NCBI RefSeq assembly: GCF_011440375.1
Contig: NZ_JAAOIR010000005.1
Span: 124,001-188,000, forward strand
Length of the DNA: 64,000 nucleotides
From: Halorubellus sp. JP-L1
Lineage (GTDB): Archaea > Halobacteriota > Halobacteria > Halobacteriales > Natrialbaceae
Direction of reading: 5' to 3'
Position 1 is the stretch's first letter, and each line of letters starts with the position of its first letter. Of the stretch, positions 53,166-57,230 are shown in pieces. Made by a program: the position numbers and the translations under genes. The notes beneath the pieces were generated by a model, which worked only from the letters and a program-made list of their open reading frames with translations, had not been told where the DNA came from and did no database searches.

Positions 53166-53579
53166 ATGCGACGGAATCCCTTCGACGAACTGGAGGACAT
53201 GTTCGACCGGATGAGCCGACAGCTTGACACGGGCGACCTCCCCGAGTTCCGGAGCGTTCCCGTGGACATGCAGGACCACGGCGACGAGTACACGGTCGTC
53301 GCCGACCTCCCCGGGTTCGGCGTCGAGGACATCGACCTGACGTTCGCCGACGGCGACCTCCGCATCGACGCCGCGCGCGAGGAGTCCTCGGAGGAGGCCG
53401 ACGACGAGGCCGGCACGTACGTCCACCGCGAACGCAGCGAGTCCGTCAGCCGTACCGTCCGCGTCCCCGACCCAGTCGTCGAGGACGAGATCACCGCCAG
53501 CTACAACAACGGCACGCTCACGGTCACGCTCCCGAAGCAATCCGAGTCCGTCGAGGGCCACAACATCGACATCAACTAG
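53166..53579 (+). CDS. Hsp20/alpha-crystallin small heat-shock protein
   Basis: This 137-residue chaperone has an N-terminal MRRNPFDELEDMFDRMSRQ, the alpha-crystallin domain (about 28-125) with VVADLPGFGVEDIDL and the closing YNNGTLTVTLPK. A C-terminal IxI-like motif (IDI in HNIDIN) docks subunits in oligomers. Its upstream region has the AT-rich word TTTTAT about 30 bp before the ATG at 53166. The start agrees with the conserved N-terminus. Confidence 0.92.
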   Translation: MRRNPFDELEDMFDRMSRQLDTGDLPEFRSVPVDMQDHGDEYTVVADLPGFGVEDIDLTFADGDLRIDAAREESSEEADDEAGTYVHRERSESVSRTVRVPDPVVEDEITASYNNGTLTVTLPKQSESVEGHNIDIN

Positions 53580-53759
53580 CGTCGATACGATATCACAGAA
53601 CGGCCCATCTAGTGTTCGCTTCGTCAGTGAGATACTGAATCAACCGGCAGGTGGCTGTTCGCACCTACTAAAACGCATCCTATTAGCCACCGATAGGGTT
53701 GATGGGGTCGTTCTGAATACCCATACAGATTGGATACGAAGTCGAAAGAACCCGTGGTG
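53580..53759. other. Low-GC intergenic DNA after hsp20
   Basis: 180 bp with no gene; base composition falls sharply just after the hsp20 stop and stays low through the following lipoprotein gene. I see no inverted repeats of an insertion element, direct-repeat boundary or tRNA fragment. Confidence 0.5.
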
Positions 53760-54785
53760 TTAGCGGATTTGCCAGAACGCTTTGCTCCCCTCTACCCAAA
53801 TACTGAATTCGAACGTCCAGTAGAGTGGACTGACATCTTCTGGGACTTCGTAAGGAATTTTCCCGCGCCGTGATTCACCAGATGTCAATGGTTGACTTTC
53901 GTTGTAGCTTTTTTCGAGTTCAGATAATGCGCTGATACTCATTGAATGGAAGTTCCCTTGCCCATCTTTCATCCGCATTTGGAGTAGCGTGGAGAGCGAC
54001 AGGTCTTCGCTGGTATTGTTCGTTATGGTGATGTCGAGAATAACGAACTCATGGCCTTCTTCGGCTTCGGTAAATGAAGAGAGGCTTGTCTCTGTTTCCA
54101 CGCTGTTCACTTTGACTGCTACATCATCCTTAGAAACGGTATCTCCTATCGAATTCAGGGGGACACGAAGCGTTTGTTCAAGTGAGGCTGTGGTCTCAGC
54201 TTCTTTACTGAGATCGATTACGATCTGGTTGTATCGGAAGAAGCTGAAGCTAGAGAGGTCGAACTGCAACACCAGTTCGGAGGCATCGGTTGGAACTTCG
54301 TACACGATGTCGCCTCGACCGACTTCACCGGGGGCGAGTTCGCCTCCTTCGAATGCGTTTCCAGTGACGGCGACTGTTTGACTGTATGTATAACCTTCTG
54401 AATCTTTTAGTTGTGTCTGAAGGAATCCGCTGAATGTCGCGTATTTTGATTCCGTGGTGTTCTTTACAGCGAGCTTGACGATGACGAATTCATTCCCTTC
54501 ATCAGCCTCCTGGAATTCGCCAATTTTGGTAGTTCTGGAGACGGATTCGACCACCATCGCCATTTGTTTACCTTCAACTAGCTGTCCAACAATTACTTCT
54601 CCCGAGGCGTCTTCCGGCGTCGTTTCTTCTGTGTCGTCGGACTGGGTCGTTTGAGTGGTTTGGTCATCGCTTCCATCCCCATCGTTCCCCCCGCCTGAAT
54701 CGAGGGTATCATCTGTATTACTTACGCATCCAGCTACAGGAACCATGGCCATACCGGTCAGACCTAGGAAATTACGACGTTCCAT
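53760..54785 (-). CDS. Tat lipoprotein with two DUF4352-like domains
   Basis: This 341-residue protein has a Tat lipoprotein signal (RRNFLGLTGMAMVPVAGC, lipid Cys at 20). An Asp/Thr/Gln-rich spacer (about 25-60) follows. Two related beta-sandwich domains (about 68-195 and 210-340) both show the DUF4352 pattern: GNEFVIVKLAVKNTTES in the first and GHEFVILDITITNNTSE in the second. It should sit outside the cell. Codon use is AT-rich at third positions, unlike all neighbours, so the gene was probably acquired. Function unknown; DUF4352 domains are common in secreted or adhesion-related proteins. Confidence 0.82.
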   Translation of the reverse strand: MERRNFLGLTGMAMVPVAGCVSNTDDTLDSGGGNDGDGSDDQTTQTTQSDDTEETTPEDASGEVIVGQLVEGKQMAMVVESVSRTTKIGEFQEADEGNEFVIVKLAVKNTTESKYATFSGFLQTQLKDSEGYTYSQTVAVTGNAFEGGELAPGEVGRGDIVYEVPTDASELVLQFDLSSFSFFRYNQIVIDLSKEAETTASLEQTLRVPLNSIGDTVSKDDVAVKVNSVETETSLSSFTEAEEGHEFVILDITITNNTSEDLSLSTLLQMRMKDGQGNFHSMSISALSELEKSYNESQPLTSGESRRGKIPYEVPEDVSPLYWTFEFSIWVEGSKAFWQIR

Positions 54786-55013
54786 GGTATGTCAGGGATA
54801 CACAAAGAGTTAAGATTGCGGTATATTTGAATTTGCTTACTTACATTTTAAATATCTATTATCCAGGTCCTATTCCCAGTCCGCTATTGACTCCCGGTCG
54901 CTATCCAGTACGAGTTACCTGATAGCACCTAGGTGAGTTGTTGCTTGGGCGTTACCTGGGTCCGCTGTAGCTAACGATCCGATCTATAGCTATTTGTGGG
55001 TGTGAGAACCGTT
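54786..55013. other. AT-rich intergenic DNA
   Basis: 228 bp upstream of the lipoprotein gene, with AT-rich words (TTACATTTTAAATATC near 54841) suitable for its promoter. No gene is seen. The composition returns to high GC at about 55015. Confidence 0.5.
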
Positions 55014-55586
55014 CTATGACACATCAGCGTCGAACGCGTGATCGGCTGCGTCGTCGAGCGCGCGGCAGGTCGCGTCGACCGCGGCGTCGACGCCGGCCCG
55101 CCACTCTCTGGGCGGGTCGTTCCCGCGCTTCGGCGGCGTCACGGGCAGGTCCACGGCGCGATAGGTCACGCGTTCGTACGCGTCCGCGGCGAGCCGTCCG
55201 ACGAACGCCGCGTTCTCCCGCTTCGTGCTCACGCCACCACTGGCGAGGTCGTAGTACGCGGAGAACACCTGGCAGACGACGACGCGGTCGTACGCGTCGA
55301 GGACGCCCGCGTCGAGGTTTCTGAGGAGTTTCACCGTGTTGTTCGCGGGGTCCGCGCGTCGAACCTCTAGCTCTACCACGACGAGCACGCGCTCGCCCGC
55401 CCGCTCCGTGAGGACGCCGACGACGTCGACGGGCGTCCCGCCGACGTCGTACTCCTCGTGCCACTCCAAGGCGCTTGCCCTACCGTCGAGTCGCTCTCGA
55501 ACCGCGGTCTGGAGCGTTCGCGCGAACTCGCCCACGAGCTGGCGCTCGCCCCCGAGGCACTTGGCTCTCGTGGCTCCGGGTGGCAA
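55014..55586 (-). CDS. Possible PD-(D/E)xK-fold protein, unknown function
   Basis: This 190-residue protein has VDVVGVL (D54) followed 17 residues later by the strand VVVELEV (E72, E74), with a helix glutamate at residue 20. The D...ExE spacing and the strand-turn-strand pattern resemble restriction-endonuclease-like folds, but the usual ExK lysine is replaced, so this is only a suggestion. Later VVVCQVFSAYYDL is another hydrophobic strand. The start is a TTG at 55586, 18 bp after the Nudix gene stop; a GTG at codon 18 is an alternative. It is the last gene of the cluster starting at 56931. Confidence 0.6.
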   Translation of the reverse strand: MPPGATRAKCLGGERQLVGEFARTLQTAVRERLDGRASALEWHEEYDVGGTPVDVVGVLTERAGERVLVVVELEVRRADPANNTVKLLRNLDAGVLDAYDRVVVCQVFSAYYDLASGGVSTKRENAAFVGRLAADAYERVTYRAVDLPVTPPKRGNDPPREWRAGVDAAVDATCRALDDAADHAFDADVS

Positions 55587-55604
55587 CGGTGCCGTCGCGG
55601 GCGG

Positions 55605-56219
55605 TCAGTCGAGGAACGCGTCGACGTCCCCGCGGTGGTTCTCGTGGACGTCGTCGGTGACGGCGTCGACCCACGCGAGCGCGTGCTCGCTCCCGTCGCC
55701 GTACAGCGGGTGGTCGAGGTCGTCGGCGAACGTCGGGTCCTCGCGATAGCCGGCCGGCGGGTCGACGAGCGACGCCTCGAAGAGGACGCTGTCCGCGTGG
55801 AACGACGCGTCCGCGTCGCCCCCGGAGCGGAACGCCGTCCGCTCGAACGCGACGGCGTCGTCGACGCGGACGTCGACGCCAGTGATGGTGGTCATGGCGC
55901 GCTCGGCGGCCGCGACCCAGTCCTCGCCAGCCTCGACGTTCCCGCCCGGCGGCGCGTACGGTGGTTCGCCCACGAGGAGGACCGCGCCGTCGTCGTTCGT
56001 GACGCCGACCTGGACGACGCCGTCGATGCGCTCGTAGCGCTCGCGGAGCGCGTCGAACTTCTCTGCGGGGAGGACGCGGTCGCGCTCGCTGCACGCGACG
56101 GTCTCGCGCTCGCGGAGATCGTCGGGGTCGGCGAGCGAGCCGATTTCGCTCGCCGTCGGGCTCGAGCCGGTCGATTTGGCGTCGGTTCGTCCGTCGGTGG
56201 TGTCGTCGTTTCGTGTCAT
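55605..56219 (-). CDS. Nudix-fold protein with destroyed Nudix box
   Basis: This 204-residue protein has a disordered charged N-terminus (about 1-50) and a Nudix domain (about 66-200). The Nudix box lies at 93-115: GNVEAGE is normal, but the essential REUxEE becomes R-A-M-T-T-I (A108, T111, I112), removing three metal-binding glutamates. It cannot be a normal Nudix hydrolase. The rest of the fold (VGEPPYAPPGG, HALAWVDAV) is kept, so ligand binding is plausible, as in transcription factors of the NrtR type. It lies between the HTH gene (91 bp upstream) and the possible nuclease-fold gene (18 bp downstream). Confidence 0.82.
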   Translation of the reverse strand: MTRNDDTTDGRTDAKSTGSSPTASEIGSLADPDDLRERETVACSERDRVLPAEKFDALRERYERIDGVVQVGVTNDDGAVLLVGEPPYAPPGGNVEAGEDWVAAAERAMTTITGVDVRVDDAVAFERTAFRSGGDADASFHADSVLFEASLVDPPAGYREDPTFADDLDHPLYGDGSEHALAWVDAVTDDVHENHRGDVDAFLD

Positions 56220-56244
56220 CGGTCGTGTCGTGGATGTGTCTGCT

Positions 56245-56292
56245 CGGCGGTCGCGGTCGTTCGTCGCGATCGGCGGTCGCGGTCGTTCGTCG
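56245..56292. repeat. 26-bp direct repeat
   Basis: The 22-base word starting CGGCGGTCGCGGTCGTTCGT occurs at 56245 and 56271 (26 bp apart) in the gap between the HTH and Nudix genes. Confidence 0.8.
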
Positions 56293-56310
56293 GGGCTGCG
56301 TCGCGGGGCG

Positions 56311-56931
56311 TCAGGCGATCTCGTCGTCGCGGTCGACGGCGTCGACGAGCCGCCGGGCGGTCCGGACCTTCCGGTCGCCGCGGTGGAGGGCGTTCTTCGC
56401 GGCGCTCGTCGACGGGAGGTCCATGCGGTCGCGGACCTGCTTCTGGGTCAGTCCACCGTCCCGGAGGACGTGCGCGCGCGCCTCCTGTCTGGACATGCCA
56501 CCGGCTTCGAGATCGTATATCCGGGGGGTCCAGGTCGTGAGCGGGAGCATCCCGGCGGTCTCGGGGTCGAGCCCGCGCTCGACGCCGTGGGTCCGGTGGG
56601 CGTCGACGACGGCGTCCTGAAGGGTCGAGCGGGCCGCCTCGCGGTCCACGTCGTCTCCCATCGCCGTCGTGTGCTCGTCCCAGTCGAGCTGCATGAACGG
56701 CAGGCGGAACGTCGCGGTGTCGACCGCGAGCGTCAACCGCTCTGGGCCGCGGTCGACGACGGTGCGGTCCGGGCGGTACTCGGTCTCCGTGTTCTCCACG
56801 AGGTTGTCCAACCGCGGACTGGTAATCTCGTCGAACGCCTCGAGGAGCGCGTGCAGGCGGTCGGGGGGACAGTCGTGGTCGGCGGCCGCTCGTTCGACCG
56901 CTGCGTCGTCGAGGGGGTGTCGTCTCGCCAT
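56311..56931 (-). CDS. HTH protein, probable autoregulator
   Basis: This 206-residue protein is of unknown family. Its C-terminal part has a helix-turn-helix-like stretch, GLTQKQVRDRMDLPSTSAAK (about 159-178), then a basic segment KNALHRGDRKVRTARRLVD. The N-terminal half (about 1-120) is a mixed domain with VVDRGPERLTLAVDTATFRL. Upstream of its ATG lie two copies of the same palindrome GTTAG-N9-CTAAC, one over the start site and one just upstream of the TATA, so autorepression is likely. It heads the cluster with the degenerate Nudix and nuclease-fold-like genes. I do not recognise the family. Confidence 0.72.
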   Translation of the reverse strand: MARRHPLDDAAVERAAADHDCPPDRLHALLEAFDEITSPRLDNLVENTETEYRPDRTVVDRGPERLTLAVDTATFRLPFMQLDWDEHTTAMGDDVDREAARSTLQDAVVDAHRTHGVERGLDPETAGMLPLTTWTPRIYDLEAGGMSRQEARAHVLRDGGLTQKQVRDRMDLPSTSAAKNALHRGDRKVRTARRLVDAVDRDDEIA

Positions 56932-56936
56932 CGGCA

Positions 56937-56955
56937 GTTAGTCGAATGAGCTAAC
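56937..56955. promoter_or_regulatory. Operator 1: GTTAG-N9-CTAAC
   Basis: GTTAG (56937-56941) and CTAAC (56951-56955), nine bases apart, lie 6-24 bp before the minus-strand ATG at 56931 and cover the predicted transcription start. The same arms recur 29 bp away at 56966-56984. Confidence 0.75.
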
Positions 56956-56965
56956 GTTACTTAAA

Positions 56966-56984
56966 GTTAGCCTAAATGGCTAAC
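56966..56984. promoter_or_regulatory. Operator 2: GTTAG-N9-CTAAC
   Basis: The same arms with the same 9-base spacer (GTTAG 56966-56970, CTAAC 56980-56984). The minus-strand TATA candidate CTTTAAG lies between the two operators at about 56960-56966, so a dimer on each site would bracket the promoter. Confidence 0.75.
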
Positions 56985-57230
56985 TCCGGTGGTCGTGGTC
57001 GAAGCGGCCGCTCCCTCTGCCGCGCCGATCGACGCAGGTGGCTGGCCGAACCCGACGTACACGCTCGGCGAGGGCGTCACTGCGTCGGTCCCAGCCCGGA
57101 CGCCGATGGTGGCGTCGAACTCGCGCTCGAACTCGAGCGCCGCTATCAGTTCGTTCTTCGCGCCACTCCCGAGCACGCCATGCACAGGCCATCCCGAACT
57201 TTTCGACGGATAGACAGGTGCGTCTGTCAT
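56967..57230 (-). pseudogene. Possible gene remnant between operators and leuS
   Basis: An 87-codon minus-strand frame (ATG at 57230) has haloarchaeal GC3-rich codons in its centre (ALEFEREFDATIGVRAG) and fewer at both ends. Its end runs into the second operator. No family is recognised. It may be the eroded tail of a lost gene or a small real gene; support is weak. The rest of 56985-57340 holds nothing else I can identify. Confidence 0.25.

Follow-up and report, generated by a model that had tools for sequence, protein, structure and literature searches.

NrtR and AraR proteins carry an impaired Nudix domain which serves as a ligand sensor (PMC4666351). In NrtR a single polypeptide contains both an N-terminal Nudix domain and a C-terminal winged HTH. 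The locus described here, found in a 64,000 nucleotide stretch (the window) of the 3.76-Mb genome of the haloarchaeon Halorubellus sp. JP-L1, likewise associates an impaired-box Nudix domain with HTH function and operators. However, the two parts are in separate open reading frames (55605–56219 and 56311–56931), and in place of the winged HTH of NrtR there is a sigma-4/LuxR-like HTH that has an N-terminal domain of its own. Regulators of the LuxR/GerE and sigma-70 region 4 type resemble the HTH protein in the C-terminal HTH and in the palindromic site, and homologues of the HTH protein pass or approach the Pfam cut-offs for Sigma70_r4_2 and GerE. The N-terminal domain here is haloarchaeal and without a Pfam family, however, and no receiver or autoinducer domain is seen.

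A third gene encodes a putative nuclease. With PD-(D/E)XK nucleases (SfsA, EndoMS/NucS, BamHI) it shares a predicted fold and the conserved acidic D...ExE residues together with an additional upstream E, but it is a single domain of approximately 155–173 aa from an uncharacterised haloarchaeal family and displays ExE where ExK is the commoner form. A speculative module of three genes gives way here to a predicted one-promoter switch. The interest that remains lies in the regulator family and its predicted operator, both of which, as read from sequence comparison, appear to have shifted in the window genome.

Layout of the locus

The features of the locus are as follows.

56966–56984: distal palindrome GTTAGC-N7-GCTAAC, positions -53 to -35 relative to the HTH start; equivalent of the family GTTTAC-N7-GTAAAC site
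56960–56965, minus strand: TATA-like TTTAAG within the 10 bp that separate the palindromes, read from the sequence; presumed promoter element
56937–56955: proximal, weaker palindrome GTTAG-N9-CTAAC, positions -24 to -6 relative to the HTH start
56311–56931, minus strand: HTH protein gene, 206 aa (coding score; alignment with nine homologues; homologue matches to Sigma70_r4_2 and GerE)
56244–56292: two identical 23-bp direct repeats, 26 bp start to start, between the HTH and Nudix genes
55605–56219, minus strand: Nudix-fold protein gene, 204 aa, RAMTTI for REUxEE (Pfam PF00293; alignment with 31 haloarchaeal Nudix proteins)
55014–55535, minus strand: PD-(D/E)XK-fold protein gene (predicted), 173 aa from GTG, resident of the PheA-Hsp20-nuclease-LeuRS block and outside the inserted pair
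55558–57223: segment without a Halorubellus salinus counterpart, containing the HTH and Nudix genes and both palindromes (blastn; junction sequences)

An earlier note on this DNA had reported three genes on the same strand: an HTH gene preceded by a pair of operator-like palindromes, a gene for a Nudix-fold protein without catalytic glutamates, and a gene for a protein with a D...ExE pattern and a possible nuclease fold. These observations hold, the last with a fold that is predicted by a model. All three genes are on the minus strand and coding scores favour all three open reading frames (56311–56931, 55605–56219 and 55014–55586). The nuclease-like gene probably starts at GTG 55535, which matches the start in its family. 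A small minus-strand open reading frame, 56967–57229, ends within the distal palindrome and is perhaps a remnant; despite a protein-like appearance it has a non-coding score and was rejected as a gene. No RNA families were found near the locus.

The HTH protein and its family

The HTH protein consists of an N-terminal domain and a C-terminal sigma-70-region-4/LuxR-type HTH. A Pfam search of the window protein itself gave no match, and to that extent the earlier description of an HTH protein of no known family stands; alignment, however, places it as a very divergent member in a haloarchaeal regulator family that has no name. It aligns lengthwise over both domains with nine homologues at 25–30% identity, and a family profile built without it recovers it at 1.2e-13. 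The family profile also matches LuxR-type HTHs in the PDB. Members are found in Haloarchaeobius, in H. salinus and in a second taxonomic family; nothing recognisable was found in the literature on them. A family profile search of the window genome gave no further members, and a search of genome contigs, viral contigs, plasmids and phages found no close relatives of the protein. Compared with the nine homologues, the recognition region of the window protein displays a one-residue insertion and altered residues. A single-sequence structure model (pLDDT 45) is too poor for use.

Palindromes and the predicted family operator

The two palindromes lie directly before the HTH start. The proximal one is imperfect, with 5-bp arms. 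There are 3 palindrome matches at two or fewer mismatches in the window versus 0.22 expected, and a twin with AT-rich arms appears in 0 of 60 Markov resamplings of the window. No other palindrome twins are found in 125 genomes of the taxonomic family, where the arrangement is unique to the window promoter.

A predicted family site, GTT[T/C]AC-N7-GTAAAC, is present before the start in 9 of 9 homologues examined, at positions -53 to -30. The distal palindrome of the window equals this site in position (approximately 30–35 bp before the start) and in its 6-7-6 geometry, but has the half-site GTTAGC, not GTTTAC. It may also resemble iron-regulator boxes. Across 392 genomes the canonical motif occurs in 8 of 9 with a strong HTH homologue versus 9 of 383 without (Fisher p = 1.7e-11, a value that overstates independence since the genomes are related). 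There are 95 canonical sites in total in the 8 genomes with strong homologues and one each in the 9 others; in 2 of the 8, the site at the regulator's own promoter is the sole canonical one. GTTTAC-N7-GTAAAC is absent from the window genome, whose GTTAGC version of the palindrome is found only at the HTH gene promoter. For a haloarchaeal regulator family that is uncharacterised, GTTTAC-N7-GTAAAC is thus a predicted operator, and in Haloarchaeobius it marks many candidate targets.

The motif is present in 13–45 copies in four Haloarchaeobius-type genomes and in 5 copies in H. salinus, frequently close to the start of a gene. Targets recurring between species are PanB, a proline-dehydrogenase-like gene and an FAD oxidoreductase. 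Some targets are shared among these relatives and many sites are without a clear gene start; the sites may possibly form a regulon.

The Nudix protein

The Nudix-fold protein matches Pfam NUDIX with an E-value = 4.5e-5. Its box reads G-NVEAG-E-x7-R-AMTTI-T-G. The GG..VEAGE half is retained, but RAMTTI is found for REUxEE and all three E residues of this segment are lost, so that the signature of active Nudix hydrolases (GX5EX7REUXEEXGU), with its catalytic glutamates, is not present and the box is impaired as in NrtR. The catalytic glutamates are absent in 26 of 31 aligned haloarchaeal relatives and kept in 5; dead Nudix proteins are therefore ordinary in haloarchaea. The window protein branches close to the base of the degenerate ones, a placement with poor support. 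A PDB sequence search with it gave nothing significant.

The nuclease-like protein

The family of the nuclease-like protein (MGEFA...TPVD...ELEWRRADPADN...) is represented by 45 named loci and was found only in haloarchaea, with none in viral contigs. Residues D37, E55 and E57 of the D...ExE pattern, plus E28, are invariant in 41 homologues and provide the conserved acidic residues of a putative PD-(D/E)XK active site. An AlphaFold model from 41 sequences (pLDDT 91.5) supports a PD-(D/E)XK core fold: the best PDB matches in Foldseek are mainly PD-(D/E)XK enzymes (SfsA, PaqCI, EcoO109I, EndoMS, BamHI), with E-values of 2e-4 to 1e-2 and TM-scores of about 0.4, which support the fold class and not any specific relative. 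A PDB sequence search gave nothing significant, and the profile gave a weak NucS match only (E-value = 0.067).

Genomic context and probable insertion

The nuclease-like gene is part of an old haloarchaeal block, PheA-Hsp20-nuclease-LeuRS-ornithine cyclodeaminase (OCD). One or more of PheA, Hsp20, LeuRS and OCD are beside it in 32 of the 45 loci, and the remaining loci are on a short contig or show a differing context. An HTH or Nudix gene is found at none of the 45. H. salinus and three Haloarchaeobius genomes display the gene order of the window minus the HTH and Nudix genes. Homology to H. salinus, the one other Halorubellus genome in the within-genus comparison, ends at position 55557 and restarts at 57224, which leaves about 1.67 kb here versus about 40 bp there. 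Because the pair is absent from all other block loci, its gain in the window lineage appears the simplest reading, with a loss in H. salinus still conceivable. In H. salinus an AT-richer stretch (AAGGTTAAGG) precedes the nuclease gene; in the window the insert replaces this native stretch and approximately 70 bp are left behind the Nudix stop. No DNA relatives of the insert were found in plasmids.

The earlier note had grouped the three genes as one module and had set their co-occurrence in other genomes as a test. No such co-occurrence is found in any set searched: none of the 45 nuclease loci has it, the sibling species is without the pair, and the nuclease gene is a resident of an older block which lacks the pair elsewhere. 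The module is therefore abandoned, and the case argues for checking synteny before neighbouring genes are read as a system. None of the other HTH-family loci examined has a degenerate-Nudix neighbour. One other genome has an HTH and a Nudix gene 3 kb apart; this candidate was rejected, as the Nudix box is intact, the genes are on opposite strands and unrelated genes lie between them.

Proposed mechanism and alternatives

Sequence comparison shows the extra segment, the place of the HTH protein in its family, the site conserved there, the changed site of the window and the damage to the Nudix box. With moderate confidence we read these as a two-gene unit inserted between the PD-(D/E)XK gene and LeuRS, in which the HTH protein is an autorepressor with a private operator and the pseudo-Nudix gene is probably co-transcribed. 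The unit, HTH regulator plus pseudo-Nudix protein, would have entered between these residents in one Halorubellus lineage. An HTH dimer would bind the distal palindrome as well as the proximal, weaker copy. The TATA-like box precedes the start codon by about 30 bp, the distance to be expected if this haloarchaeal promoter is near-leaderless. Since the palindromes flank this box, their occupancy by two dimers would block TBP/TFB and RNA polymerase. The most likely effect of the HTH protein is autorepression, with autoactivation as an alternative. In the half-site GTTTAC appears to have become GTTAGC, and the recognition region to have altered with it. As both have changed, the regulator is probably private, acting solely at its own promoter. 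This apparent joint shift of recognition helix and operator, which rests on one example, would be a natural case of regulator and operator changing together. The pseudo-Nudix protein may bind a nucleotide-type ligand. Its gene is probably co-transcribed with the HTH gene, a single transcript being uncertain because of the 91-bp gap with its direct repeats. The nuclease gene would be a bystander, though one whose transcription may now start at the HTH promoter. Binding, repression, co-transcription and the role of the Nudix protein are what we infer.

That the two inserted genes are chance neighbours is possible, if doubtful: the HTH gene would regulate only itself, and the Nudix gene would be an unrelated passenger that arrived with it or separately. 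The direct repeats between the genes fit this, as does the failure to find another HTH-Nudix pair of this kind, and gene gain is frequent here (compare the second low-GC extra segment at about 53579–55047). However, one lineage-specific segment contains both genes, they share a strand, and both have good coding scores. Unlikely as a whole is a wider reading, in which the family combines its conserved autoregulatory palindrome with a regulon in some genera, and the window member has shed the regulon, gained a private operator and recruited a pseudo-Nudix co-sensor. The earlier idea of an NrtR split into neighbouring genes is less probable still. The dead Nudix protein would bind a nucleotide (e.g. 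ADP-ribose) and the HTH protein, freeing the latter from the twin operators. Dead Nudix sensor domains are known in NrtR/AraR (PMC4666351), and the two genes are adjacent, on one strand, in one insert. But the HTH is not winged, members of its family occur without a degenerate Nudix partner and possess an N-terminal domain of their own, and dead Nudix proteins are widely found where this HTH is missing; the split-NrtR proposal thus fails to find support.

A defence role, also raised earlier, is very improbable. A nuclease effector silenced by the HTH protein would agree with the predicted PD-(D/E)XK fold and with the position of the nuclease gene, which follows the pair on the same strand and has the insert in place of its native upstream region. 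The nuclease family sits in a housekeeping block of many haloarchaea, however, without the other two genes. No PADLOC or PHROG match was obtained, a search for viral relatives found none, and no defence signature emerged.

Other observations on the block

In two Haloarchaeobius genomes the nuclease-like gene gives partial matches only (query residues 67–176 and 95–162), which suggests decay in some lineages. The segment at about 53579–55047 is absent from H. salinus, adjoins the nuclease-like gene and carries a DUF4352/DUF5067 lipoprotein; it has 48–60% GC in 1-kb windows versus about 70% around it. The LeuRS slot between OCD and the nuclease gene contains either a LeuRS close to that of the window (63–89% identity) or a distant form (27–34%). 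The distant form is found in either orientation, an apparent in-place replacement of LeuRS. Divergent haloarchaeal LeuRS types have been described (PMC3436685), and the forms in the block loci fit these.
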